A stretch of 64,000 nucleotides of DNA from Chryseobacterium gallinarum (GTDB taxonomy: Bacteria > Bacteroidota > Bacteroidia > Flavobacteriales > Weeksellaceae). This document shows positions 31,001 through 43,732 of this stretch, in pieces (within the stretch, counting starts at the first letter, position 1; each line of letters begins with the position of its first letter). The position numbers and the translations under genes were made by a program. The DNA lies in assembly GCF_001021975.1 (NCBI RefSeq), contig NZ_CP009928.1, forward strand, positions 3,228,001 to 3,292,000, written 5' to 3'. The notes under the pieces are model-generated. The model was given only the letters and a program-made list of their open reading frames with translations, was not told where the DNA came from and searched no databases.

Positions 31001-31587
31001 GAAATCTTAAAGCAGACAATGATGGAGGGGTTGAAGCTGGTGAAAAAGGTTATATAGCTGAAAATTTAAAAATCACACACTTAGGGTTCCAAATGCGTGA
31101 TAATACCGGACATACAAGTGATAAGATATCAACATTAAGATTTGCTAATAATGAATCAAAAGCTTCAGAAGTTGCAGAATATTTTTATAATAACACCAAT
31201 ATAGAAACTGCAAACTCAACATATTCTGGATCAAATAATACTACTTTCTCTATTATCTCTACTTTTCACTTAGAGTCTGGTGCTCCTATTGATCCCAAAA
31301 GATTTGTAGATAATTTTTCTGTGAATGGAAACTGGTTTTATCCAAGTACTTTAACATCACAAGATCATAATCATCCAATTCAGCTAGGATATTCACCAAG
31401 CGGTTTGAGATATGATGGTAAAACAAAAACTTTTATGCCATCTAATGATATTTTTGCGACCGCTAAAGATGTAATATCTGATACAAATGCAGCAAAAAAT
31501 AATCCAACAGTTAGATTAAGAGTATATTCATCACTTTTAAAACAATATATTAAATACAATGAGACATACGGAAATTTTGAAAAATAA
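28081..31587 (+). CDS. DUF6443/Rhs repeat-associated core protein with putative JAB-like toxin tip
   Basis: An 1168-residue polymorphic toxin. Signal peptide 1-19, then a DUF6443 region ([30 protein letters not shown]), YD repeats, and the Rhs-associated core ending [14 protein letters not shown]...[10 protein letters not shown] at residue 940. The last 228 residues are the variable tip. It carries D-H-N-H-P (1095-1099) and a following PSG...D pattern, resembling the JAB-like toxin 1 family of Bacteroidota polymorphic toxins (predicted metallopeptidase/deubiquitinase-like fold). The immunity lipoprotein gene overlaps its end. The lack of a C-terminal T9SS domain leaves the export route open. 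Displaced tips follow from 32182 to 45680. Confidence 0.82.
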
Positions 31588-32134
31588 TCTAATAATATTA
31601 GTTTGCTTAGTATTTTTTTACAGTTGCTTTTCTTCACAGACAAAAAAAGATAAGGTAAAAAATAAAATAAATATTAATGCAATTGTTGATGGTTATATCC
31701 ATTTTTATTCTGATAGGAAAAGTAGCTTTAATTCAAAAGAAAGGTATTTGATGTTAAGCATAATTAAAAATCAAGATTTAAGTAAAATGCAGATTGATAT
31801 TTTGGATAATTGTTATAATTGTCCAGGTCCTGAAATAACTAAGGATATGAATGTGGTTCAGTATAAAGGCTATCGGATTATAATTGGTACAGATATACCT
31901 AATCAACAGGAATTTATTTCAAAAAATTTTAAAAATATATCTAAGGGGGCTTTATTTTCAGTACCTCATTATCAAAAAAATGCGACATATGATTTTCCAC
32001 GCCATTGGACATTTGAATATGATGGGGAGAATAAACTTATACAATTTTGCAATCCTATTTTAACTGAGTTAGAAGAAACAAAAAAAGCATTACATATTGA
32101 TAATACTGTAATTGACTGTGATCCTAGAAAATAA
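31559..32134 (+). CDS. Putative immunity lipoprotein for the main Rhs tip
   Basis: A 191-residue protein starting inside the toxin gene (29-bp overlap from ATG 31559, or 11 bp from a TTG at 31577). A hydrophobic segment ends in the lipobox FYSC, so it should be a periplasm-facing lipoprotein, suitable for neutralising a toxin arriving from outside. The domain has a [10 protein letters not shown] start and a [18 protein letters not shown] end. The same pattern recurs in the genes at 33256-33784 and 41979-42542, so the three are distant paralogues. Immunity function is inferred from position. Confidence 0.65.
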
Positions 32135-32149
32135 TTATAAGTACAACTT

Positions 32150-32186
32150 TTACTGCTACATGAAAGAATTCTTGTGGCAGTATATT
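32150..32186 (+). terminator. Hairpin after the first immunity gene
   Basis: TACTGCTACA / TGTGGCAGTA arms (one G-U pair) with a palindromic AAGAATTCTT loop, followed by TATTAA. It separates the active toxin-immunity pair from the first displaced tip. Confidence 0.5.
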
Positions 32187-33253
32187 AACAAGTAGCTATA
32201 TTTACCAATATAAAGATCATTTAGGAAATGTAAGAGTGAGCTTTGGAAGAAACAGCGCAGGTGGTGCTCTTGAAATTACAGATGCTAATGATTATTACCC
32301 ATTTGGTATGAACTATTTAAAGACTGGTAATGCCTATTTTGGACAAGGAACTTATAAGAATTATAAGTACAATGGCAAGGAGCTGCAGGAGACTGGTATG
32401 CATGATTATGGAGCAAGATTCTATATGCCGGATCTGGGAAGATGGGGTGTTGTCGATCCATTGGCGGAAACTTCCAGACGTTGGAGTCCTTATACTTACG
32501 CTTTTAATAATCCTTTGAGGTTTATTGACCCAGATGGAATGCAGGCAGAAGATAAGATTAAGATCTTTAACAATGGTAACATAGAAAGAACAAAAGACAA
32601 TAATGCCTATGATACTATTACCAACGAAGATGAATCTAAATCTATTCAAATTGCCCGTACAAATGTGACAGAAAAGATCCTACAGGAGACTCACAAATAG
32701 GAGAAGCTAAAGATATTAATTTTAAAACACCAGGACACGAAGGCTCAAAAGGAAGTAACATTTATACATATCTACAAATACAAAATGATGATGCAGCTAA
32801 ACAATTTTTTGACTTTGCAGCAGAAAATACTAATGTTGAATTTACTAGGATACATTTAATTTTGGAGATGGATTTTCCTCAAATGTTATAACTACTAGCC
32901 ACGTTACTAATGTAAGTGTTAGTGCCTATTTTGCCATTCCCTATGTAAATCTGGCAGGAGAAAATGGAAATCACTTCATTAACCAAACCAAAAGTGTTGA
33001 TTTTGATCATTCTCATCCGCTAGGAGAGAGTATAGCCCCCGGAGGATTTAATGTTAGATTTGATAATAATAATCCTATTTTTTATAAAATCATTACGGGA
33101 GGTTATGTAGATGCTGATGTATCAAGCAGAAATCCAATATTTAAAACTACCAATGTCTATAGTACTTGGAAATGGCCAACACCAGGAAAAGGGTATGTTA
33201 ATTTTAATGGTTCAACAGCAACATATACAGGTAGTAACAGAAAAATAAATTAA
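32182..33253 (+). pseudogene. Displaced Rhs tip 1: core fragment plus JAB-like toxin, two frameshifts
   Basis: The frame is open from about 32182 without an ATG and begins with core sequence YIYQYKDHLGNVRVSF, running to [12 protein letters not shown]. The tip then breaks. The frame ends at 32700, but removing a one-base loss in the A-run near 32673 gives DPTGDSQIGEAKDINFKTPG in the next frame. A second shift near 32850 restores FNFGDGFSSNVITTSHVTN up to the stop at 33253. The last part contains DFDHSHPLGESIAPGG, the same D-H-x-H-P motif as the active tip. It looks like a decayed paralogous toxin; sequencing error in homopolymers cannot be excluded. Confidence 0.75.
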
Positions 33254-33255
33254 TT

Positions 33256-33784
33256 ATGAAAACAAAAATGATATTTATTTTAGGAACTATACTAATTCTA
33301 TTTTCTTGTAAAGCACAAGATAAAAAGATTGATCCTAAAGTAGTAATGCAAGTTATTGAAAGTTATATTGACTTCAAAAACAAAGAGCACTACGTAAATG
33401 CAAATGACAATATATTAATAGTTGGTGCAAATAAAATACAAAAGGAAAACAAATATTGGTTAAACGTATATTTTATGAATCCAGAATTAATGTCTGGTTT
33501 TTAAGTATACAAAAGTCTATAAACTTTATAATTATAGGATAATAATTGATGAAGTACTAGATGAAACAATCATGTTAAAAAATGCATTTAAGAATATACA
33601 GGAGGTTCCTTACGAAAACTTTAACTTAGCTTCTTATCCTTTCTCTTATAACACTAGTATGTGGTTGCTTACTTTCAATTATAAAAATGAAGTTATACAA
33701 GTATCGCCTCAAGAAAAAGCAAAGAATATAAAAAGTATTTTAGAACAGAAAGGTGTTAAATTTTCAAAGGACTACGAAGAGTAA
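33256..33784 (+). pseudogene. Immunity lipoprotein gene of displaced tip 1, frameshifted
   Basis: It starts 2 bp after the toxin remnant with MKTKMIFILGTILILFSCKAQ, a lipoprotein signal. The frame stops at 33504 after LMSGF, but a +1 shift in the T-run at 33499-33502 continues as KYTKVYKLYNYRIIIDEV and joins the open frame to 33784 (WLLTFNYKNEVIQVSPQEK). The restored product (about 175 residues) resembles the immunity proteins at 31559 and 41979. Toxin and immunity gene of this pair are thus both broken. Confidence 0.7.
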
Positions 33785-34252
33785 AATTAGATAATGATAT
33801 ATAATGATGTACCAAATAAAAAAATCCCAATACTATTTTACTTATTAATATACTAATTACTTAAAAAATAGATAATGATAATTATTTACGAAATTCTTAT
33901 CATTTTTTAAATTATAATAAATAATAAATATTCTATTTTTTATTATTTAATCTCGCATATTGCTATAAACAGATTCGAAACCTATTTTTCAAAAATAAAG
34001 AAAATTTTTAAAAATATTATGTTAAGCATAGTATTTTAAGTGTTAATAAAATTTAACAATTTAATTAATTTTATGTTAAATTATTATAATTTATATTTTT
34101 TACAACTTTTCAAGTATATTTTTAACTCATTTTAAGAGTTTCCTATAATTTCAATTTTCCAAAAATTAACTACATCATAAATCTAGTAATAGAAGTAAAA
34201 ACAGGCTAAAATTAGCCTGTTTTTGTTTTTTCAAAAGTTCATTTTTTTCTTC
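33785..34252. other. AT-rich intergenic stretch without a recognisable gene
   Basis: About 470 bp of very AT-rich DNA with many stops in all frames. The only structure seen is the hairpin near its right end (34198-34220). It marks the left border of the AT-rich island. Confidence 0.7.
34198..34230 (+). terminator. Terminator AAACAGGCTAA hairpin
   Basis: AAACAGGCTAA / TTAGCCTGTTT perfect 11-bp arms with a two-base loop, followed by TTGTTTTTT. It lies about 410 bp after the broken immunity gene. Confidence 0.85.
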
Positions 34253-34597
34253 ATGAAAAATGTTGAATTAATTCTAATCATAAGAATTATGTCTAATAAA
34301 AAAATTTCAATTATCTCTCGTGTCGTGAGAGACTTAATGAGAGAAAAGCAAGAACTTTCAAAAAATGAAAATAACAATTTTTTGAACAAATTGTTGAGAA
34401 TTATTAAATACAAAATCATTGATTATTTTTTAGAAAAAATCATAGATAGTATTTGTTTGTTGTATAAAATTGATTCAAACCCCTTCGAATTATTTCAAAA
34501 CATTCCAAATACAATTTTTGATTATTTGATTTCATTACTCCACATCAAATCCATTTTGTTACGATTAATTGATTTGTTAAATCATTTAGTTAATTAA
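34253..34597 (+). CDS. Possible small hypothetical protein
   Basis: An open frame of 114 residues from ATG 34253 (or 102 from ATG 34289, MSNKKISIISRVVRDLMREK). It is rich in Ile/Leu/Lys/Asn with a helical, amphipathic look and no recognised domain. It is bounded by a terminator on the left and a strong hairpin on the right (34629-34675), which supports a separate transcript. In such AT-rich DNA a chance frame of this length is possible, so confidence is low. Confidence 0.35.
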   Translation: MKNVELILIIRIMSNKKISIISRVVRDLMREKQELSKNENNNFLNKLLRIIKYKIIDYFLEKIIDSICLLYKIDSNPFELFQNIPNTIFDYLISLLHIKSILLRLIDLLNHLVN

Positions 34598-34628
34598 ACC
34601 ACTTCGGGATTCTAACAAGCTGACAATC

Positions 34629-34675
34629 ATGCAGTAAAATATTTTTTCTAGAACGAAAAAAATGTTTTGCTGCAT
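34629..34675 (+). terminator. Long hairpin with terminator-like tail
   Basis: The arms run from ATGCAGTAAAATATTTTTTC to a complementary stretch ending TTTTGCTGCAT. The two mismatched positions are both G-U pairs in RNA, followed by TTCTCTTTTTT. It could terminate the 34253 transcript, or be the left-end structure of the adjacent insertion sequence. Confidence 0.6.
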
Positions 34676-34713
34676 TGTTCTCTTTTTTATTAAATTTATA
34701 ATATCAATAAAAC

Positions 34714-35670
34714 ATGATAAGTTATTCAAATTCAAACACTTATAATCCTGAATTCAACTCTCTAATCAAAATGATAGAGGTTTTAGATACAGAATAAAAA
34801 TGCAGAGAATATTTTGAAGAATTACGTTGGAATGGAGAACCTATTTGTCCTCATTGTGGAAGTATTAGGGAAAATCATTACAAATTAAAACAAGGTGGTC
34901 GATTTAAAGGACTTTACAAATGCAAAGATTGCAGAGAAAGATTTACCATTAGAATTGGAACTATGTTTGAGGATTCAAATATTAAGTTCAAAAAGTGGTT
35001 TCTTGCAATTTATTTGTTTTCGTCTCACAAAAAAGGAATTAGCAGTCATCAATTGGCTAAGGATATTGATGTAACTCAAAAAACTGCATGGTTTATGCTT
35101 TCAAGAATTAGAAATGCATTTCAACCTGATAGAACTGGAAAATTTGATGGTATTACTCAAGTGGACGAAACATTCGTAGGTGGAAAAAATCAGAAGAAGT
35201 CCAAAGAAAAAAGGACTGAAAAAACTCAAGGTCGAAGCACCAAAACAAAAACTGTTGTATTTGGTCTTTTAAGCAATGGAATTGTAACCACAGAAATTGT
35301 CCCAAACACAAAAGGTAAAACTCTTATAGCTGTTATCAAAGATATGGTTAAAGAAGGATCAATAGTTGTTAGTGATGGTTGGGTAGGCTATTCCAGTTTA
35401 CATAAATACTATACCCACAAAAAGATTCCACATAATGAAGGACTTTATGTTAAGGATTCCTTTCATACAAATAGTATTGAAGGATTCTGGAGTTTACTAA
35501 AACGAGGAATTCTTGGTATTTATCATTCTGTAAGTCCGAAACATCTTCAAAAGTATTGCGATGAGTTTGCTTTTAGATACAATACGAAAAACTATACCGA
35601 AGGTGATAGGTTTAATCTTGCATTACTAACTGCTACGGAGAGGATTACGTATGAGGAACTGATAGGTTAG
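34714..35670 (+). pseudogene. IS1595-family (ISXO2-like) transposase with an in-frame stop
   Basis: The frame starts at ATG 34714 and reads 27 codons to a TAA at 34795-34797, then continues without shift to 35670. A CAA-to-TAA change would explain the stop (expected ...DTEQKCREYFEELRW). The N-terminal zinc-ribbon is intact after the stop (CPHC...CKDC). The DDE/N ISXO2 domain follows: QVDETFVGGKN, VVSDGWVGYSSL, IEGFWSLLKRGILG. An internal start downstream, such as 34963, would lack the zinc ribbon. No convincing terminal inverted repeats were found. The copy is likely inactive, or read through only at low level. Confidence 0.85.
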
Positions 35671-35677
35671 TTATACC

Positions 35678-36094
35678 TTACTTCTGTTTGTTTTCAATTA
35701 AACAAATCGGTTGCTCTGGATCAAGCAAGGGAATATTAACTAATTGCTGTGTTATCTTAGCATAAGTAAATGCATCTGTAGTAAAAGTTTGAGCATTATG
35801 TCTGTGTGAATGATTAACTTTAGTTATTCTATAAGGCTTTTTTCTTTCAATTGCTACAAATAACTTTTCACATTCAAGTTTTGAGTTTAAATCAAGGGCT
35901 GAATATTCATTTATTTTTCGTTCTTTAGGGTCTAACTCTTTAAGAATAGTTGCTTCGCTATTTCTAGAACATTTATATGTTAAACATTTACCAATAGATT
36001 CAAAATCAACATATACACCAGGCATAATTTTCCTTGAAATTACTTCAGCGGAATCACATTCAATAGTAAAATTATTATGTACAAATTTAGTCAT
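35678..36094 (-). CDS. Unknown protein, third gene of a minus-strand operon
   Basis: 138 residues, MTKFVHNNFTIECDSAEVISRKIMPGVYVDFESIGKC..., with four cysteines and an NHSHRHN histidine cluster near residue 95. I recognise no family. It overlaps the preceding gene by 8 bp (coupled translation). Its stop lies only 8 bp beyond the transposase stop codon in the opposite orientation, so the last residues could derive from the insertion-sequence end and the gene may be truncated. Confidence 0.6.
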   Translation of the reverse strand: MTKFVHNNFTIECDSAEVISRKIMPGVYVDFESIGKCLTYKCSRNSEATILKELDPKERKINEYSALDLNSKLECEKLFVAIERKKPYRITKVNHSHRHNAQTFTTDAFTYAKITQQLVNIPLLDPEQPICLIENKQK

Positions 36095-36584
36095 TCGAAG
36101 AATTAATTGTGTTTTTTTGATTTAACAAATTTAGAGATATTGACACGGAAAAAATTTCAAATAAATCTTCCTCATCGAAATCTACATCAATTTTACTAAT
36201 GACGCTAGATAAATTATTTATTTTATTTATTGAGTCTAGCCTATTATCAGTTTTTATTAGATACTGGTCTTCATTATTTTCTAATTCATCATTAAACTCA
36301 TCTTCAGTAATATATTCATTAGACAATTCATACATCAGATTTAAATATCTTTTTTGTTTTAATAAATTTCTAATAGCCGTAATATAGATTTGTTCTTTTT
36401 CATGAAAATTTCTGGTAATCTCATAAATTGGCAACTGAAAATCATGTCTAATAAAATTAGATCGTAAATTTGTAACTTTTGTCAATGTTAAATCATTAAC
36501 AATAAAACCAAAGCTCAAATAGCTATCATTATTTGAGAAATAAGTTTCATTATTAGTTAATTCAAATTCAGTAATATCATTCAT
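36087..36584 (-). CDS. Unknown protein, second gene of a minus-strand operon
   Basis: 165 residues, acidic (many Asp/Glu/Asn). It opens MNDITEFELTNNETYFSNND with a beta-rich N-terminal half (SYLSFGFIVNDLTLTKVTN), then a helical middle (HEKEQIYITAIRNLLKQKRY) and an acidic tail. No family is recognised. It overlaps both neighbours by 8 bp, a tight three-gene arrangement that implies a joint function. Base composition is as AT-rich as the island around it. Confidence 0.65.
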   Translation of the reverse strand: MNDITEFELTNNETYFSNNDSYLSFGFIVNDLTLTKVTNLRSNFIRHDFQLPIYEITRNFHEKEQIYITAIRNLLKQKRYLNLMYELSNEYITEDEFNDELENNEDQYLIKTDNRLDSINKINNLSSVISKIDVDFDEEDLFEIFSVSISLNLLNQKNTINSSND

Positions 36585-37182
36585 ACTCCTTAATTATTAA
36601 TTTAGCATACTCTTCAAAAGATTCAAATTTTTCAATTGATTGTGAAAAGCTATCATCATCTTTAAAGTGAAAATTAAAATCGAATTGTAAAGCATTTTTA
36701 CTTTTTTCACCAATTTTTGAAAATAACTCTATAGGATTAACTTCTAATCGTAATCTACTATTCTCATAATCTGAACTTACATAATACCCATATGCTGCAG
36801 TAGTATCATCAAAAAAATTATTTAATTTATTCTCTTTAAAATAAAATAATTTTTTTGATTCTGTAATAATATCATCTATAAAAAGAGCCCATTTAAAATT
36901 AAATCCATATTTTTTGACATATATATCATTAATAAATTTATCAATATTAAGTTGTTTAATTGTTAAATCATTGTTTTTAAAAGTTATAGCAATTCTGAAA
37001 TCAATAATATCTATTATATATTCGTTTGTTTCTATATATGAACTATTAGGAAGAAATATACTACTTTCTAAAATTTCATCTTCTTTTAATATTTCATTTT
37101 TAATAAAAAATAATTTATCATAATTTGACGGTTTGAAATCACCAATCATAATAATATTTTTTTCTAAAAAAATTTTTCCCAT
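36577..37182 (-). CDS. Unknown protein, first gene of a minus-strand operon
   Basis: 201 residues, no signal peptide, so cytoplasmic. It begins MGKIFLEKNIIMIGDFKPSNYDKLFFIKNE and shows alternating beta-strands (YIIDIIDFRIAITFKNNDLTI) and an acidic C-terminus ending FESFEEYAKLIIKEYE. I do not recognise a domain. It is the promoter-proximal gene of the operon 37182-35678. Given the location inside a toxin-tip array and next to a transposase, accessory or defence-related roles are possible, but nothing in the sequence proves it. Confidence 0.65.
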   Translation of the reverse strand: MGKIFLEKNIIMIGDFKPSNYDKLFFIKNEILKEDEILESSIFLPNSSYIETNEYIIDIIDFRIAITFKNNDLTIKQLNIDKFINDIYVKKYGFNFKWALFIDDIITESKKLFYFKENKLNNFFDDTTAAYGYYVSSDYENSRLRLEVNPIELFSKIGEKSKNALQFDFNFHFKDDDSFSQSIEKFESFEEYAKLIIKEYE

Positions 37183-37401
37183 TACTATTAATTATTAAGC
37201 AAAATTACTTATTTAAAATTAAACAATATTTTGACATGACAAAAAACATATTTATAAATTGTTAAAAATGTAGTTTTAAATATGTATATAGAACTACATT
37301 CAATGAACATTAAAAACCTAATACTCCTTTAGAAGCACTCAGATAATCAATAAATTCGTCAGCCGATTTATTATATGCATTTGTTGTGTCATGTAACTCT
37401 A

Positions 37402-38220
37402 CTAATCCCCATAACTTTCAGTTAACTCAACTTGTTTTTTATTTAGATCATTCGCAGATTTTGTTAGTGAAGTCCAAGCAGAAATATCCGTCTTTGACAT
37501 TCTATTTTTTTGTATTCTATACAATCTTACATAGTGGTCGAATTTGGGAATGGTTGCTATAATTTGTTTTCGTATAGATTGTTGTTGTTCAAACCAATTA
37601 TCAACTTTTTTCAAATAATCCTTATCTTTTTGTAAGACTTCAAGTGTAGCCATAGTACACCAAATTCGATAATATTTAGTTTTTACATATAGGTTTTCAC
37701 CTATTTGATAAGGTTTATAGCCGAGTGATTGCATAAATCGATTTACAGTTTCTCTATCAGCTTCATATTTTTGTTTTTCTTCTTTTTCCTTATTGATGTT
37801 TTTAAGAAAACTTGATTCCATCACATAAAGTTTCTTGGTGTTTTCATTTTCTACCAATAATACATTACTTTCAGGAAGATCATAATATTTTATGACTTCT
37901 TCACTTAGCTCATATTTAAGAAAATGTCCCGAAACATCTTGATCATGAAAACCCATTTTATTTGAAACAATAGTAAAAGAGCCTTTTAATTCATCTGAGG
38001 AAATAGGAATTTGTTCATTAATTGAAATCATGTAAGCATTTCTTTTTTCTGAACCATCGGTTACTTGTTTAACTTTAACAGGAGTTAAAGTCTGGTAATC
38101 AAACTTTTTTAATATTTCATCATCAAAAGAAAATTTTGTTTGTCCTGATAAATAGAGATTTGTTAACATCAAAATAGAATATGATGCTACTGTTTTGAAT
38201 GTAGAGAATTCAAATTTCAT
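37402..38220 (-). CDS. Exported hypothetical protein, 272 aa
   Basis: An N-terminal signal peptide (TVASYSILMLTNLYLSGQ) predicts export. The mature part has a beta-rich first half (AYMISINEQIPISSDELKGSFTIVSNKMG) and a long helical, Lys/Glu-rich second half from about residue 140 (KEKEEKQKYEADRETVNRFM...), probably with coiled-coil segments. No family is recognised. It is monocistronic, with a 180-base leader full of inverted and direct repeats (38221-38400). Its composition is less extreme than that of the operon on its left. Confidence 0.6.
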   Translation of the reverse strand: MKFEFSTFKTVASYSILMLTNLYLSGQTKFSFDDEILKKFDYQTLTPVKVKQVTDGSEKRNAYMISINEQIPISSDELKGSFTIVSNKMGFHDQDVSGHFLKYELSEEVIKYYDLPESNVLLVENENTKKLYVMESSFLKNINKEKEEKQKYEADRETVNRFMQSLGYKPYQIGENLYVKTKYYRIWCTMATLEVLQKDKDYLKKVDNWFEQQQSIRKQIIATIPKFDHYVRLYRIQKNRMSKTDISAWTSLTKSANDLNKKQVELTESYGD

Positions 38221-38400
38221 TGTGGTAGTTTTGGTTAATAAATGCTTAAAAAATAAAGCGTGGACATTGTACCACGTTAACCAAGGGCTACCACACCCTT
38301 AAAAGCAATGATACAAGCCACGCCAAAATGGCGTACCTTATATACATTATTTGCTTTTAAAGATGAAGTTCGAAAACTTCGTTGTGGTAGTTTAGGTTAG
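38221..38400 (-). other. Structured leader/intergenic element with direct and inverted repeats
   Basis: Most of the 400-bp gene-free stretch 38221-38621 is this element. An 18-bp near-direct repeat (TTGTGGTAGTTTTGGTTA at 38220 and TTGTGGTAGTTTAGGTTA at 38382) brackets it. Inside are hairpins CGTGG/CCACG (38259-38276), AAGGG/CCCTT (38283-38301), CGCCA/TGGCG (38324-38336) and GAAGTT/AACTTC (38365-38380). Arms AAAAGCAA/TTGCTTTT enclose the CGCCA hairpin. TGTGGTAG also pairs with CTACCACA at 38288. It precedes the minus-strand gene at 38220. Confidence 0.6.
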
Positions 38401-38501
38401 CAATAATGCAATTAGCACGATTTATTTACATTCCTTTTTCGGAATGGTTTTTATTTTTAATAATACAAATATATAAAAAAGATTTAAGGCTGAAAAACGC
38501 A

Positions 38502-38526
38502 AAACCCTCTAAAATAGAGGGTTTAT
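38502..38526. terminator. Bidirectional terminator-like hairpin
   Basis: AAACCCTCTA / TAGAGGGTTT perfect arms with a three-base loop, flanked by A and T/A-rich sequence. Confidence 0.6.
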
Positions 38527-38597
38527 TATAAATAAAAAAAAGAATCTCAATACGGATTTCCGTAAAAACACTGATTGTTTTTGAAATTTTATAGTGT

Positions 38598-38605
38598 TAG
38601 TTTTG
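38598..38605 (+). promoter_or_regulatory. -7 element of the 38622 gene
   Basis: TAGTTTTG is a perfect TAnnTTTG, with a TTG at 38575-38577 in the -33 position (20-bp spacer) and the start codon 17 bp downstream. Confidence 0.65.
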
Positions 38606-38621
38606 CGAAAAAACAACAACA

Positions 38622-38987
38622 ATGAGACAATATCATTGTTCTTACGATACTATTAAATGTGATAAACATTTTACAGATTATAAAGAAGCAAAAAGATATC
38701 TTTTATGTGTTTTAGGAAACACTCCAATAAAAGAGATTAAATCTTTTAATGAAAGTACTTTCATATTATACTACAAAAATAATCATGATTCACAAAAGCT
38801 AGTTGATTATCTATTTACTAATCTCAGTAAATATTTTTATTTTACAATTTCAATAATTGCTGAAAGTAAAATTGACAATCATCATTATGTAGATTCAAAT
38901 CCAAATAATGAATTAAATATAAATTTACAAAATGAATGGCATAATTTAAATTGTGAAAATTTAAATAACCCTCTAACAGAATATTAG
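38622..38987 (+). CDS. Small hypothetical protein, 121 aa
   Basis: It begins MRQYHCSYDTIKCDKHFTDYKEAKRYLLCVLG, with three early cysteines, then an alternating strand/helix pattern, and ends in an Asn-rich tail (NNELNINLQNEWHNLNCENLNN). No family is recognised. A good promoter (-33 TTG, -7 TAGTTTTG) directly upstream supports expression. It stands alone between the structured element and a convergent pair of small minus-strand genes. Confidence 0.6.
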   Translation: MRQYHCSYDTIKCDKHFTDYKEAKRYLLCVLGNTPIKEIKSFNESTFILYYKNNHDSQKLVDYLFTNLSKYFYFTISIIAESKIDNHHYVDSNPNNELNINLQNEWHNLNCENLNNPLTEY

Positions 38988-39006
38988 ATGAAACAAAATA
39001 GAGTCT

Positions 39007-39234
39007 TTATCTTTCCGTCCATTTAATATCTTCAACTGGGGTTTCACCATGCATCCAAAAATTTGAATAAAAACCAAATAAATATCCATTAATTCTTATC
39101 AAATCTCTTTTGTCTGTTAATGCAATGGACTTTGGTAATCGTCTATATCTACATACAAAATCGAAAAAGACAAGTATTTTGTATAAGAATTTTATTTTAA
39201 ATAAAACTGTTAGAGAAAGTTCTTTAACATTCAT
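39007..39234 (-). CDS. Small basic protein, 75 aa
   Basis: MNVKELSLTVLFKIKFLYKILVF..., with a hydrophobic/aromatic first third, several Arg/Lys, and a C-terminus HGETPVEDIKWTER. No family is recognised. It follows the 49-residue acidic gene by 18 bp in the same direction, suggesting a two-gene unit of a small acidic and a small basic protein. A chance frame is possible in this AT-rich DNA. Confidence 0.4.
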   Translation of the reverse strand: MNVKELSLTVLFKIKFLYKILVFFDFVCRYRRLPKSIALTDKRDLIRINGYLFGFYSNFWMHGETPVEDIKWTER

Positions 39235-39252
39235 AATTTTTAAGTTTAAATG

Positions 39253-39402
39253 TTATTTTTCTTCAGTTTCCTTATTTTCACCCTCTTGAACAGTTGGTTG
39301 TTGATTGTCATTTTCATCAACCTCTTTTTCAGTGCTTTCTTGAACAGTGGGAACAGTTGGACTTTCTAAATTTTCTGCGATGAATTCTTTTAATGATTTC
39401 AT
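39253..39402 (-). CDS. Very small acidic protein, 49 aa
   Basis: It starts at ATG 39402 with MKSLKEFIAENLESP, then a low-complexity acidic tail with a repeated PTVQE element (SPTVPTVQEST... and QQPTVQEGEN) ending KETEEK. The amphipathic N-terminal MKxLxEFIxE helix followed by a disordered acidic tail is a coherent design rather than random sequence, and codon use keeps the composition less AT-rich than its surroundings. The function is unknown; a precursor peptide, a toxin inhibitor or a phage-derived small protein are all conceivable. Confidence 0.5.
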   Translation of the reverse strand: MKSLKEFIAENLESPTVPTVQESTEKEVDENDNQQPTVQEGENKETEEK

Positions 39403-39593
39403 AATAATTGAATTTTAGAATATGTATACAACTTTGTATATACAAACTTTTTGAGTGCATGTAGTAGTTGATACAGTTCACTAATAATCAAAAATTAAGT
39501 TTCTTAATTCAAACATTGTTCATAAATTACAAATTAAAAATGTGCTATTAACACTTTAATAAATTACTATTTAAATTATATAATGTATACAAA

Positions 39594-40448
39594 ATGATTT
39601 TTAATATTTACTATATAAATTTTCCTAAAGTTTACGAAATAAAAATGATGCTTAATAATATGCTTCTTGCTGGACAGACAGTTGAAAAAGATAAAAGTAT
39701 TGAAGGAGAGGCTTACTTAAAAACAAAATTAGGATTTAATATTCTTGATATTTTTAAACTTGGTGAAGCTGAAGCTGGTGGAAATATAAAAGGCTCTGGT
39801 TCTAAAAAAGTGTTAGAAACTTTTGAAATAAAAACAACGAAATCTGTAATTCTAGATGAAGTTGTTAAAAACTGTAACAATTTTAATGGTTTTGACAATG
39901 TTTCTGAAGGACAATTAATAAAAATTGATGATGTAAAACTAACTTTGGAAAATGAAGCTGAATTAAGAATGGTAAAATTTATGAATAGTGGGGCTATGAA
40001 AGATTTAGTCGTTCCAGGTACAAATGGATTAGATATGAATAATCTTTTTAATTCAATGTTTAAGGATTATGCATATAAAATTAAAGGTGCAATAAAAAAC
40101 GATGAAAACATATTAATAAAAATTCCATTAACATTTGAGAGTGAATTTGAAAGTTCTTATAGTGTTGACGATTTATTTGTAGGAAAAGTTTCTATAATTG
40201 GATTATATAAAGGAAAAATAAAAATCGATGATTTAAAAAATTCTTTCCAATATTTTCAAGAATTAGGACAACTTCAAAATACTTTTCAAACAACAGCAAC
40301 TGCTACTACTGATGATTCTGAGATTGAAGAAAGTCATTATACAACGAATGAGGAAAATCAAACATTCAATTTTACAAGTTCAGGAGATGGGAAAGAATAT
40401 TATTATATTGATTTATTGGCAATTATTCAAAATGTAAATATTAAATGA
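39594..40448 (+). CDS. DUF6414-like protein, first gene of a two-gene module with an AAA+ ATPase
   Basis: 284 residues, no signal peptide. The N-terminal YYINFPKVYEIKMMLNNMLL, the Gly-rich GEAEAGGNIKGSGSKKVLETFEIKTTKS, and SEGQLIKIDDVKLTLENEAEL followed by a second beta domain (ILIKIPLTFESEFESSY...GKVSIIGLYKGKI) follow the layout I associate with DUF6414 proteins. This assignment is from memory and tentative. The C-terminal 50 residues are Thr/Glu-rich and probably disordered. The ATPase gene begins 13 bp downstream on the same strand, so the two are co-expressed and likely act together. Confidence 0.65.
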   Translation: MIFNIYYINFPKVYEIKMMLNNMLLAGQTVEKDKSIEGEAYLKTKLGFNILDIFKLGEAEAGGNIKGSGSKKVLETFEIKTTKSVILDEVVKNCNNFNGFDNVSEGQLIKIDDVKLTLENEAELRMVKFMNSGAMKDLVVPGTNGLDMNNLFNSMFKDYAYKIKGAIKNDENILIKIPLTFESEFESSYSVDDLFVGKVSIIGLYKGKIKIDDLKNSFQYFQELGQLQNTFQTTATATTDDSEIEESHYTTNEENQTFNFTSSGDGKEYYYIDLLAIIQNVNIK

Positions 40449-40461
40449 TAATATATTAACA

Positions 40462-41718
40462 ATGACTTTATTATTTTACGAAAAAGATGACTATTATGAT
40501 TTTAAGGAATCAAAGGAAGTAGAAGGCTTTACAATAATTAGCATTACCAAATTTTTGCATAATGTTTCTTTAATAGATGAAATAGATACAGAAACAGAAA
40601 TAATCGATATTTCTGCAATGACTGAATACATCAAAATACAGTCAATATTTGAAGAGATAAGTGGTCGTTTTAACGAAATGCAAATTTTCATATGTGATAT
40701 TTCTAAACGAGAAGCTCTAGAATACGAACTACGTTTTGTATTTGACAGTTTTGAAAATGTTGATAAAGACATATTTATTAGAAAAGAAAGAAATTTAACG
40801 CCTGTTGGGGAGAATTCTATAATTTCAAAAAGACACAGAAAAATAATTGACCTAACTGATTCAGAATTATTTGAATTTTTTGAAAATTTTAGATCAAAAT
40901 TATATGGTCATGCAAAATTTAAAGATGATTTCGAGGAACAAATAAGAACATTTCGAATTTTTAATAAACTAGGTGAACATAAGATTTTATCTTTCTTTTT
41001 AATGGGTGAATCTGGTGTTGGTAAAACAGAAGTTGCACGAAATATTTTCAATTGCTTGAATGGAGAAAAGAAATTTGCAAAAATTAATTTCGGGAACTAC
41101 AGTAATGAGTTTTCACTAAGTTCGCTAATTGGTTCTGCAAGAGGATATATTGGCAGTGAAGATGGAGAAATATTTATGAAAGTTAGAGAAACTGATATTG
41201 GACTTCTGTTAATCGATGAATTTGAAAAGTCAAATTCCACTCTTTTTAATTATTTTTTAGAAGTTTTGGAAAGCGGTAAGATGACAAGTTCTATGGGTGA
41301 AGAAATAGATTTAAATGGTTTTATTATTGTTTTTACTTCAAATATTTCAAAAGATGATTTCAAGAATAGAATTTCACCAGAGTTACGATCTCGTTTTGAC
41401 TATAAATGCATTTTTACATTATTGAGTAATGAAAGTAAGAAAAAATATGTAGAATTTAGAGCTGAAAATATCAGTAAAAAAGTGCACTCAGAGTTTCAAA
41501 TTGAAATAGGGGATCAGCTAAAGAGTTATTTATTAGCCGTAGTGAATGTATCTTTGTACAAAAATATGAGAGATATTAACAAACAAATCAAAAAGGAGTT
41601 TCTAAATTATCTTAAGATTTATCATGTGCAACAAGAAGACGAGAATAATAATGAGATGGAAACTGCTAATAACAGATTTGGACTTGCTAGAAGGTTTTTA
41701 AATTTTTTTAATAGTTAA
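40462..41718 (+). CDS. Clp/Hsp100 D2-type AAA+ ATPase with a novel N-terminal domain
   Basis: 418 residues. The N-terminal 130 residues match nothing I know. Residues 147-340 are a ClpA/ClpB-D2-type AAA+ module: YGHAKFKDDFEEQIR replaces the usual IGQ entry motif, Walker A is GESGVGKT (182-189), a pore-loop segment SLIGSARGYIGSEDG (Tyr229 in GYIG) parallels the Clp D2 pore loop, Walker B is LLLIDE (248-253), sensor 1 lies in FTSN (294), and the arginine finger in ELRSRFD. Hence it is a likely hexameric unfoldase or remodeller. It carries a single AAA ring and no protease-docking loop that I can see. The partner is the DUF6414-like gene upstream. Confidence 0.85.
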   Translation: MTLLFYEKDDYYDFKESKEVEGFTIISITKFLHNVSLIDEIDTETEIIDISAMTEYIKIQSIFEEISGRFNEMQIFICDISKREALEYELRFVFDSFENVDKDIFIRKERNLTPVGENSIISKRHRKIIDLTDSELFEFFENFRSKLYGHAKFKDDFEEQIRTFRIFNKLGEHKILSFFLMGESGVGKTEVARNIFNCLNGEKKFAKINFGNYSNEFSLSSLIGSARGYIGSEDGEIFMKVRETDIGLLLIDEFEKSNSTLFNYFLEVLESGKMTSSMGEEIDLNGFIIVFTSNISKDDFKNRISPELRSRFDYKCIFTLLSNESKKKYVEFRAENISKKVHSEFQIEIGDQLKSYLLAVVNVSLYKNMRDINKQIKKEFLNYLKIYHVQQEDENNNEMETANNRFGLARRFLNFFNS

Positions 41719-41884
41719 ATTTGTCAGATTATGTTAAAATTTGTATTCTACTTGCTTCAATTTTGTATAAATTAACATTATCATTTATATTATGTTAAAT
41801 ACCTTATTTAGTGTGGAAAACCGTAATTTATATTTGAAAATATTTCGTACGAGATTGAATTAATTTGTCTTATTACGTAAATAA

Positions 41885-41912
41885 AAAAGCATTCTTGACG
41901 AATGCTTTTGAG
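41885..41912 (+). terminator. Terminator after the AAA+ module
   Basis: AAAAGCATTC / GAATGCTTTT perfect 10-bp arms with TTGAC loop. Confidence 0.8.
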
Positions 41913-41920
41913 TATTTTTG
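41913..41920 (+). promoter_or_regulatory. -7 element upstream of the lone immunity-like gene
   Basis: TATTTTTG is a perfect TAnnTTTG directly behind the terminator, about 59 bp before the TTG at 41979. Confidence 0.4.
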
Positions 41921-41978
41921 TATATGTCAAATAATTAATATCAGCCAAAAATTTTAAATCAAAAGTTGTTTAATTATT

Positions 41979-42542
41979 TTGGTACATCATTATATATCAT
42001 TATCTAAATTATTACTAGTTCTGATTCTGATATCCCAGTTAGGTTGGTCGCAAATTCCATGCATATCAAAAAATTATAAAATTAATAATTTTATTGATGC
42101 ATTTATTTATACAAATAATGATGAAAATTTTACACCAACTTTATCATCAATTTATGTATCAAGTTTATATTACGAGAATCAAGGATATATGATTACCATC
42201 ACTAGGGAAAATAATAGTGATATTAATATAAATCCTAAAGCTAAAAATTTAACCTTCTTTAAGTATAAAAAATTTAATTTACTATTAAAGGGTAATACTC
42301 CTGAAGATCTTAACTTTTTAAATAAAGCCATTATAAATAAATCTATTTCAAACAACTCTGACTTAAAATTTACCACATCTAATGATAACATTTCTAATGA
42401 TCCTTATCAATGGTTTCTTCTATTTGATATGAAAATGAATCTAATAAATTATTCTTTACCAGAAGAAGAAAATAAAATAAAAGAAATTTTTGAGAAGTTT
42501 AGTATTCCAACGAGTAAAGTTGAGAAAAAAAAAGTTGAATAA
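41979..42542 (+). CDS. Immunity-like exported protein without its toxin
   Basis: No ATG precedes the signal-like segment KLLLVLILISQLGWSQ. The frame opens at 41958, and TTG 41979 is the most plausible start, so the 5' end may be damaged. The mature protein resembles the immunity proteins at 31559 and 33256: NNFIDAFIY near the start, and QWFLLFDMKMNLINYSLPEEENKIKEIFEKF near the end, parallel to WLLTFNYKNEVIQVSPQEKAKNIKSIL. There is no toxin tip directly upstream; the AT-rich island lies there instead. It is likely an orphan immunity gene kept for protection against kin. Confidence 0.55.
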   Translation: MVHHYISLSKLLLVLILISQLGWSQIPCISKNYKINNFIDAFIYTNNDENFTPTLSSIYVSSLYYENQGYMITITRENNSDININPKAKNLTFFKYKKFNLLLKGNTPEDLNFLNKAIINKSISNNSDLKFTTSNDNISNDPYQWFLLFDMKMNLINYSLPEEENKIKEIFEKFSIPTSKVEKKKVE

Positions 42543-42600
42543 TTTTAGAAAACTTTCCCCAAACTGGTATAAGCATCTTTCTTGTGCCTAGAATAAAAAT

Positions 42601-42633
42601 AAACAGTTTGCTTTTCAAAGCAGCCTGTTTTTG
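42601..42633 (+). terminator. Terminator after the orphan immunity gene
   Basis: Two-part hairpin AAACAG-tt-TGCTTT / AAAGCA-gc-CTGTTT followed by TTG; it directly precedes displaced tip 2. Confidence 0.65.
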
Positions 42634-42636
42634 TAA

Positions 42637-43732
42637 AATAAGTATATTTACAACTATACGGATCACTTAGGAAATGTACGATTAAGTTATATGAACAGCG
42701 AATCCGGAATAGAGGTTATTGAAGAAAGTAATTATTATCCCTTTGGCTTGAAGCATGAAGGTTATAATGTATTAACAGGAAATTCAGCTTATAATTACAA
42801 GTACAATGGTAAGGAGCTGCAAGAGACAGGTATGTATGATTATGGGGCAAGATTCTACATGCCGGATATTGGAAGATGGGGTTATCGATCCGTTAGCAGA
42901 GAAAATGCCGAGCTGGTCGCCATATACCTATGCAATGAATAATCCTGTTAGATTTATTGACCCAACTGGAATGATTCCAGAAAATCCAAACCCTGATAGC
43001 TTCTGGCATAGAGTTACTTGGTCTGGAGCAAGGAGAAATGCACAAAGATATGCCAATGCAAAATCTGATCTTGGCTATGAATCTCAAGTTTATAAAAATT
43101 CTGATGTATGGAGTGTAAGAGGACAAAAAACACGAGATGACGGAACTACGTCAACAACATCTCATTATGCGGCTTCTTATGATAATAATGGAGAAGTCTA
43201 TTCTAAAAGTTGGTCATTAACAACTCAAAGTCCTGAACCAGTTCCGATGGATTATGCTTCTTCAGGTGATGCAACAATTAGTTCTCCAAGCCCATTTCAA
43301 GGTAAGAGTAATTTCGATATTGTAATGGTCGATACAAATCCTATAATGCCAGCAATAGCAAGCGCTGTAGTTCCACCTTTAGGATTTATAGCGGGAACTG
43401 CACAAACAATTAATGATGCTTCTGAATGTAATTATTTTGGTGCAGCAATAGGAGTAGTATCTTTAGGATTAAGTGCTAAAATGTCTGGCCCAGCTAATCA
43501 ATGGTTTAGAGGGGCAGATAATAAATTCTCATTAACTCCAGGTAACACATTTAGTAAGACTCTTGACCAAGGAACGGTTGGTTTTAAATGGGGAGCAAGC
43601 CCTATACATTTAAATAAAATTCCAAGTCCAGGAATGCAGAAAATTAATCAAATGATTAGGCGTACGAGTTTGCCAGTTAGTGATAATTTAGGATTGAGAG
43701 AAGCAGGACATTATCATTTAAGAACGAGGTAA
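42637..43732 (+). pseudogene. Displaced Rhs tip 2: core fragment plus unknown toxin, one frameshift
   Basis: The frame is open from 42637 (YIYNYTDHLGNVRLSY) with no start codon before 42691. It carries core sequence to DIGRWG, where a two-base loss in the GT-rich GGGGTTAT (other copies read GGGGTGTT) shifts the frame. The continuation [30 protein letters not shown] and the tip are intact to 43732. The tip has two hydrophobic stretches ([17 protein letters not shown] and [13 protein letters not shown]), possibly for membrane passage, and ends [15 protein letters not shown], a His/Arg-rich C-terminus that could be a nuclease active region. I cannot assign the toxin family. Without promoter or start it is a silent cassette unless recombined. 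Confidence 0.75.

Follow-up and report, generated by a model that had tools for sequence, protein, structure and literature searches.

Dodola, one of the known systems nearest to the genes considered here, is a two-gene defence system composed of one ClpB-like ATPase and one partner protein. Dodola gave broad protection to S. thermophilus, and its chromosomally integrated form gave near-complete protection at most multiplicities together with a growth delay that was lost on knockout; the same 2025 paper lists its mechanism and its abortive phenotype as unknown (PMC12322248). An earlier study observed a minimal effect and filed Dodola with abortive systems. Its AlphaFold2 model of the partner comprises an N-terminal helical domain and a C-terminal alpha/beta domain, with weak matches to DNA/RNA binding or modification proteins, and by our reading this paper seems to swap the names DolA and DolB relative to PADLOC (PMC11514479). 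The PDC systems are, according to a Bacillus cereus survey, unpublished candidates of Payne et al.; in this survey a case called both Dodola and PDC-M37 was treated as a duplicate and deleted, and PDC-M37 is counted among the candidates that DefenseFinder names otherwise (PMC11811056). Here we analyse two adjacent genes, A and B, in a 64,000-nucleotide stretch of the Chryseobacterium gallinarum genome (NZ_CP009928.1, positions 3,228,001 to 3,292,000; hereafter the window). We conclude, with a probability of roughly 0.7, that they are a member of PDC-M37, probably a distant relative of Dodola, and a candidate anti-phage system. Among the matches listed, the literature search returned no experiment on PDC-M37, a name met there in one paper, the genome survey (PMC11811056), and no paper on the mechanism of either system, the coverage of subscription journals being poor.

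Gene A (39594..40448, 284 amino acids) and gene B (40462..41718, 418 amino acids) are complete open reading frames (ORFs) on the forward strand, as are all features of the pair given below, and they are spaced by 13 bp, which agrees with an earlier note on this DNA. Against the PADLOC-DB models, A matches PDC-M37A at 6.1e-113 (residues 1-283 on model positions 3-274 of 277), and B matches PDC-M37B at 7.4e-148 (residues 2-387 on model positions 4-386 of 390). Both matches run nearly end to end, and the adjacency and order of the genes are those of 13 other loci. It is very likely that the window genes are the PDC-M37 pair. No difference from PDC-M37 was found, the N-terminal domain of B being single in the window and double in some relatives. 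Since both proteins are already modelled in PADLOC-DB, the pair was recognised earlier as a candidate defence system and is not a new kind, and the novelty that the earlier note had implied falls away. For the genome of C. gallinarum, the pair represents ordinary candidate defence genes.

The same note had regarded the two genes as one module and proposed to check their co-occurrence; the module does recur, in five of the 197 genomes scanned from the bacterial family and in four plasmids. PDC-M37A was found in those five genomes. PDC-M37B, scanned over the 197 genomes at a threshold of 1e-40 with nine candidates scored per genome, matched in 27 of them. Matches of 9.2e-147 or better are confined to five places, which lie in the same five genomes as A and adjoin it, and the remaining 23 places belong to open reading frames 842-897 residues long, taken here for ordinary Clp proteins. 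Phylum-wide, A is present in 1 of 296 genomes, the window's own. Among 72,556 plasmid records A occurs in four, and these top the list of the 1963 records matching B; searches with two Bacillota A proteins led to the same four plasmids again. When genome contigs were scanned with B, six loci came up, five with A upstream and the sixth a 27% partial match lacking A. PDC-M37 occurs here in Bacteroidota and Bacillota. No match to A was seen in 50,697 phage records, nor any to A or B among viral contigs, in scans that find close relatives only.

For a closer comparison, 14 loci were assembled (the window, L006-L014 and L016-L019). In all 14 the two genes share a strand and adjoin directly, A first, and among the 13 loci measured the gap ranges from -8 to 73 bp (approximate in L010; L009 left out). 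The distances among the A proteins follow those among the B proteins, with r of 0.94 for all 14 loci and 0.91 when only the 10 Bacteroidota loci are used, values as high being reached in 0 of 5000 permutations in either set; the loci are not all independent, the A proteins of L018 and L019 being near-identical. With 955 relatives of A (E 1e-3 or better) and 2575 of B (1e-30 or better, a count that may include other Clp proteins), chance is excluded for the gene pair.

Judged from its sequence, B is an intact AAA+ motor of the type found as second ring (D2) in ClpB and ClpC, and it lacks a ClpP-docking loop. Its single AAA+ module (residues ~128-395, 40843..41646) matches the second nucleotide-binding domain of ClpC/ClpB. 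The module contains the Walker A motif GESGVGKT (residues 182-189, 41005..41028), the pore-loop segment ARGYIGS (residues 226-232, 41137..41157), the Walker B motif LLIDEFEK (residues 249-256, 41206..41229), sensor 1 TSN (residues 292-294, 41335..41343) and, 10 residues past sensor 1, the arginine-finger motif SPELRSRFD (residues 305-313, 41374..41400), as well as a sensor-2-like NMRDIN. Across 44 aligned sequences, window B included, most of the motif positions vary little or not at all, and the strict patterns are kept in 131 (Walker A), 132 (Walker B) and 132 (sensor 1) of 134 B sequences. B has what is expected of a threading motor at this level: its ATPase motifs are intact and its pore loop bears an aromatic residue.

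The ClpP-docking loop of Clp ATPases is located between sensor 1 and the arginine finger. In all 120 measurable B sequences this gap is 10 residues, which leaves no room for the loop, and none of the 120 has an IGF/IGL-type loop. In contrast, three Clp-sized proteins of the same genome have 31-40 residues between the two motifs by manual count. ClpB and ClpC also possess two AAA+ rings, whereas B has no first ring and a different N-terminal domain. This domain (residues ~1-104, 40462..40773) is modelled as five strands alternating with helices. No Pfam match starts before residue 159 of B, and the sequence profile of the domain gave a single match among solved structures, at E 3.1, which we take as chance. 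The anatomy that the earlier note had read in B, with its Walker, sensor 1, arginine-finger and GYIG pore-loop motifs, without D1 or a docking loop and with N-terminal residues that could not be placed, is therefore borne out. In some relatives the N-terminal domain of ~110 residues is doubled in tandem (L014:9989-11545; proteins P0126, P0176, P0178 and P0193); 18 of 120 listed B relatives are longer than 500 residues, and four of these were read.

The closest species-named relatives of A are from C. rhizosphaerae and C. nakagawai, at 97% identity. The predicted fold of A, which is of low confidence, consists of an N-terminal strand and helices (residues ~1-92) followed by a beta-barrel-like C-terminal part (residues ~93-283) that may, with the same low confidence, be described as an OB-like barrel. 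The published model of the Dodola partner (PMC11514479) is loosely like it. Foldseek gave no match for the fold at 1e-3 among solved and viral structures, and the sequence profile of A gave none at E 10 among solved structures. No catalytic motif was recognised in A.

A had been labelled "DUF6414-like" in the earlier note, and this label is rejected at the level of sequence. DUF6414 (Pfam PF19952) matches neither window A nor four Bacillota relatives nor, at E 1, any of 30 A proteins, and it has no match in the genome that carries the window. A profile comparison based on five DUF6414 proteins scored 14.0, no better than shuffled columns: of 60 decoys made by column shuffling, the top ten all scored higher (17.7-23.1). 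Four DUF6414 proteins matched no PADLOC model at 0.001, and a search of plasmids with one DUF6414 protein and of phages with another found nothing. By eye, A and DUF6414 have a similar order of a tyrosine-containing first, a glycine-containing middle and a last strand, which is an impression only; a distant relation in fold may exist. The Dodola partner may go by the name DUF6414; the literature search found no paper mentioning that name.

A weak lead for A is its likeness to Tad5, an inhibitor of Thoeris. The Tad5 model is matched by 11 of the 30 A proteins, all below its cut-off (best E 0.0013), and in window A by residues 212-283 (40227-40442) at E 0.062. None of 194 family genomes matched the model, in a scan that is little informative because it gave no match anywhere, and literature joining Tad5, Thoeris and inhibitor was not found. 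Two further observations concern A. The A gene of a Priestia plasmid (L018:7043-7771) has an end that differs from its near-identical sibling in L019, and the L018 copy may be damaged. The PDC-M37A model also matches the control genome of Methanocaldococcus jannaschii, a hint that A has a relative among the archaea.

In the earlier note, the setting of the pair was called typical of defence or inter-bacterial competition genes. From 4 of 12 flank loci, six proteins were picked by eye and examined singly. In L041 the pair has a type I methyltransferase on one side and a specificity subunit gene on the other. It adjoins a type II methyltransferase and then a restriction enzyme in L011, and is next to PDC-S06 in L014 and PDC-S02 in L012. 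The pooled flanks held 157 ORFs of at least 110 residues without A and B, reduced to 153 of at least 118, of which 150 were scanned at 1e-20. As a control, 143 ORFs were taken out of nine 20-kb regions in three Bacteroidota genomes, one region that abutted a pair having been swapped for a stretch 1 Mb further on. The flanks matched 133 PADLOC families versus 16 in the control, figures that count families rather than ORFs and do not express a rate, as one gene may match many. Among the first 25 of the 133 are type I and type II restriction-modification, ThsB of Thoeris and several PDC families, along with likely look-alikes such as mad2 and DpdF. The control families include RtcR, IetA, GajB, mad3 and a reverse-transcriptase-helicase model, and we read the control matches as helicase, sigma-54-activator and ATPase look-alikes.

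In the window itself, 33 other ORFs were scanned, comprising 31 of the 51 listed ones of at least 100 residues (all of those listed between 31.5 and 50.8 kb included) and two shorter ones. They matched 11 PADLOC families at 1e-5, a single member each; mad3 reached 1.6e-30, and the others were at 5e-11 or weaker, among them PDC-S11, PDC-M62A, PDC-M25A, AriA and PtuA. We read these 11 matches as ATPase look-alikes, and the argument from setting is therefore weak for the window copy. A neighbourhood of defence genes thus holds for some relatives, by the four loci named and by the pooled flanks relative to the control, but not for the window's own copy.

Kinship of PDC-M37 with Dodola is likely but unproven. 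Three of four Bacillota A proteins match the DolA model weakly (6e-6 to 4e-5, 21.7-24.4 bits) over most of their length, and the Bacillota B protein of L017 covers nearly the whole DolB model. Like the setting of the window copy, several results weigh against our conclusion. Window A has no DolA match at E 1, and the A protein of L019 has none at 0.01, though it is nearly identical to that of L018 over most of its length. Among 395 Bacteroidota genomes DolA matches one, at 20.2 bits and in an unrelated-looking ORF, and the Bacillota hits are barely above noise. DolB gives B a score of 84.7 bits, versus 100.7, 83.3 and 81.6 for Clp-sized proteins of the same genome, and its model matches all 14 control genomes. 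The DolB match was rejected as proof of Dodola because the Clp-sized proteins of the own genome score alike. If PDC-M37 is a relative of Dodola, a large and diverse sequence set would be gained, in which the N-terminal domain is open to duplication and the ATPase has no protease loop. Protease-free defence by a single-ring Clp protein, the ligand of the N-terminal domain and the partner as a nucleic-acid binder would then become testable questions.

Phage defence is likely to be the true function of the pair; co-inheritance, the intact AAA+ motifs and the defence neighbours of some related loci are consistent with it. A split in which A would sense or act and B would serve as the motor is plausible. 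In the mechanism that we tentatively favour, B would assemble as a Clp-type ring, hydrolyse ATP and pull polypeptide through a tyrosine-lined pore with no protease involved, while its alpha/beta N-terminal domain would receive A or a phage ligand. A would recognise phage nucleic acid or nucleoprotein and direct B to remodel the target, so that phage multiplication would be blocked, cell death not necessarily being involved. The survival at high multiplicity seen with Dodola argues for direct interference, and this phenotype, together with the anatomy of the pair, is the reason for preferring a mechanism in which A recognises and B remodels. A more specific form of it is more doubtful still. 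In this form, A would be a nucleic-acid-reading adaptor whose OB-like barrel loads the protease-free ring of B onto phage nucleoprotein, and proteins would be mechanically stripped from phage DNA or RNA, stopping replication; a nucleic-acid-addressed unfoldase might then be common to PDC-M37 and Dodola.

It is also possible, though not probable, that A is a toxic effector which B holds or refolds in an inactive state, and that infection releases A to stop growth or kill the cell (abortive infection). Such an arrangement would suit two coupled genes, B being the companion of A wherever A was found. The related Dodola does carry a cost, given that its integration delayed growth and knockout removed the delay (PMC12322248), and one study files it among abortive systems (PMC11514479). 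However, the near-complete protection by chromosomal Dodola at most multiplicities is unlike suicide, and the paper reporting it leaves the abortive phenotype listed as unknown (PMC12322248). The lack of a recognised catalytic motif in A likewise speaks against a toxic effector.

Other functions appear less probable than phage defence. Since the window pair lies among Rhs-type ends and the flank starting at 42005 has a second copy of 99% identity in the genome, the pair could serve inter-bacterial competition or Rhs biology, for instance by handling the adjoining Rhs ends. We consider this highly improbable, because the flanks of the relatives match restriction and other defence families and no Rhs gene was seen beside the pair in 12 other loci, as judged from the annotations and first 60 residues of the flank ORFs with no Rhs profile search. 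A stress or protein-quality module, with B as a stand-alone disaggregase, A as its client or adaptor and no immune role, would fit the fact that B is nearest to ClpC/ClpB D2 in sequence and fold. Its patchy distribution (5 of 197 family genomes; in the phylum, only the window's own of 296), its presence on plasmids and the defence neighbours at some loci render this highly improbable. Scarcely credible is the view that the pair is a relic and B a decayed remnant of ClpB; although B has one AAA+ domain where ClpB has two, the ATPase motifs are kept across 134 sequences, and B has its own N-terminal domain and a full ORF of 380-518 residues in 14 of 14 loci. The earlier note, which had taken B for a Clp-D2-type motor and named a disabled ClpB relic as the alternative, was right on this point.

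The pair is situated in an AT-rich island between toxin ends and a transposase, as had been noted before. The G+C content is 26.3% in 31500-42700 versus 37.1% for the remainder of the window. A Pfam scan placed an IS1595-family transposase 3.9 kb upstream of the pair (34963-35670), with further ORFs in between, and Rhs-type ends, read from the translations, flank the pair downstream from ~42.7 kb and upstream at 32236-32700. Four AT-rich ORFs on the minus strand in the interval from transposase to pair (35678-38220) matched no PADLOC model at E 1, and a Pfam scan of three of them gave nothing better than 0.17. The Rhs-type end at 42691-43732 is split across two overlapping frames (42691-42942 and 42806-43732), and this copy may be broken. 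The adjoining flank of the pair, 42005-42680, has a 99% identical second copy in the same genome (G000:C1:1272445-1273119), so that the pair borders repeated sequence.
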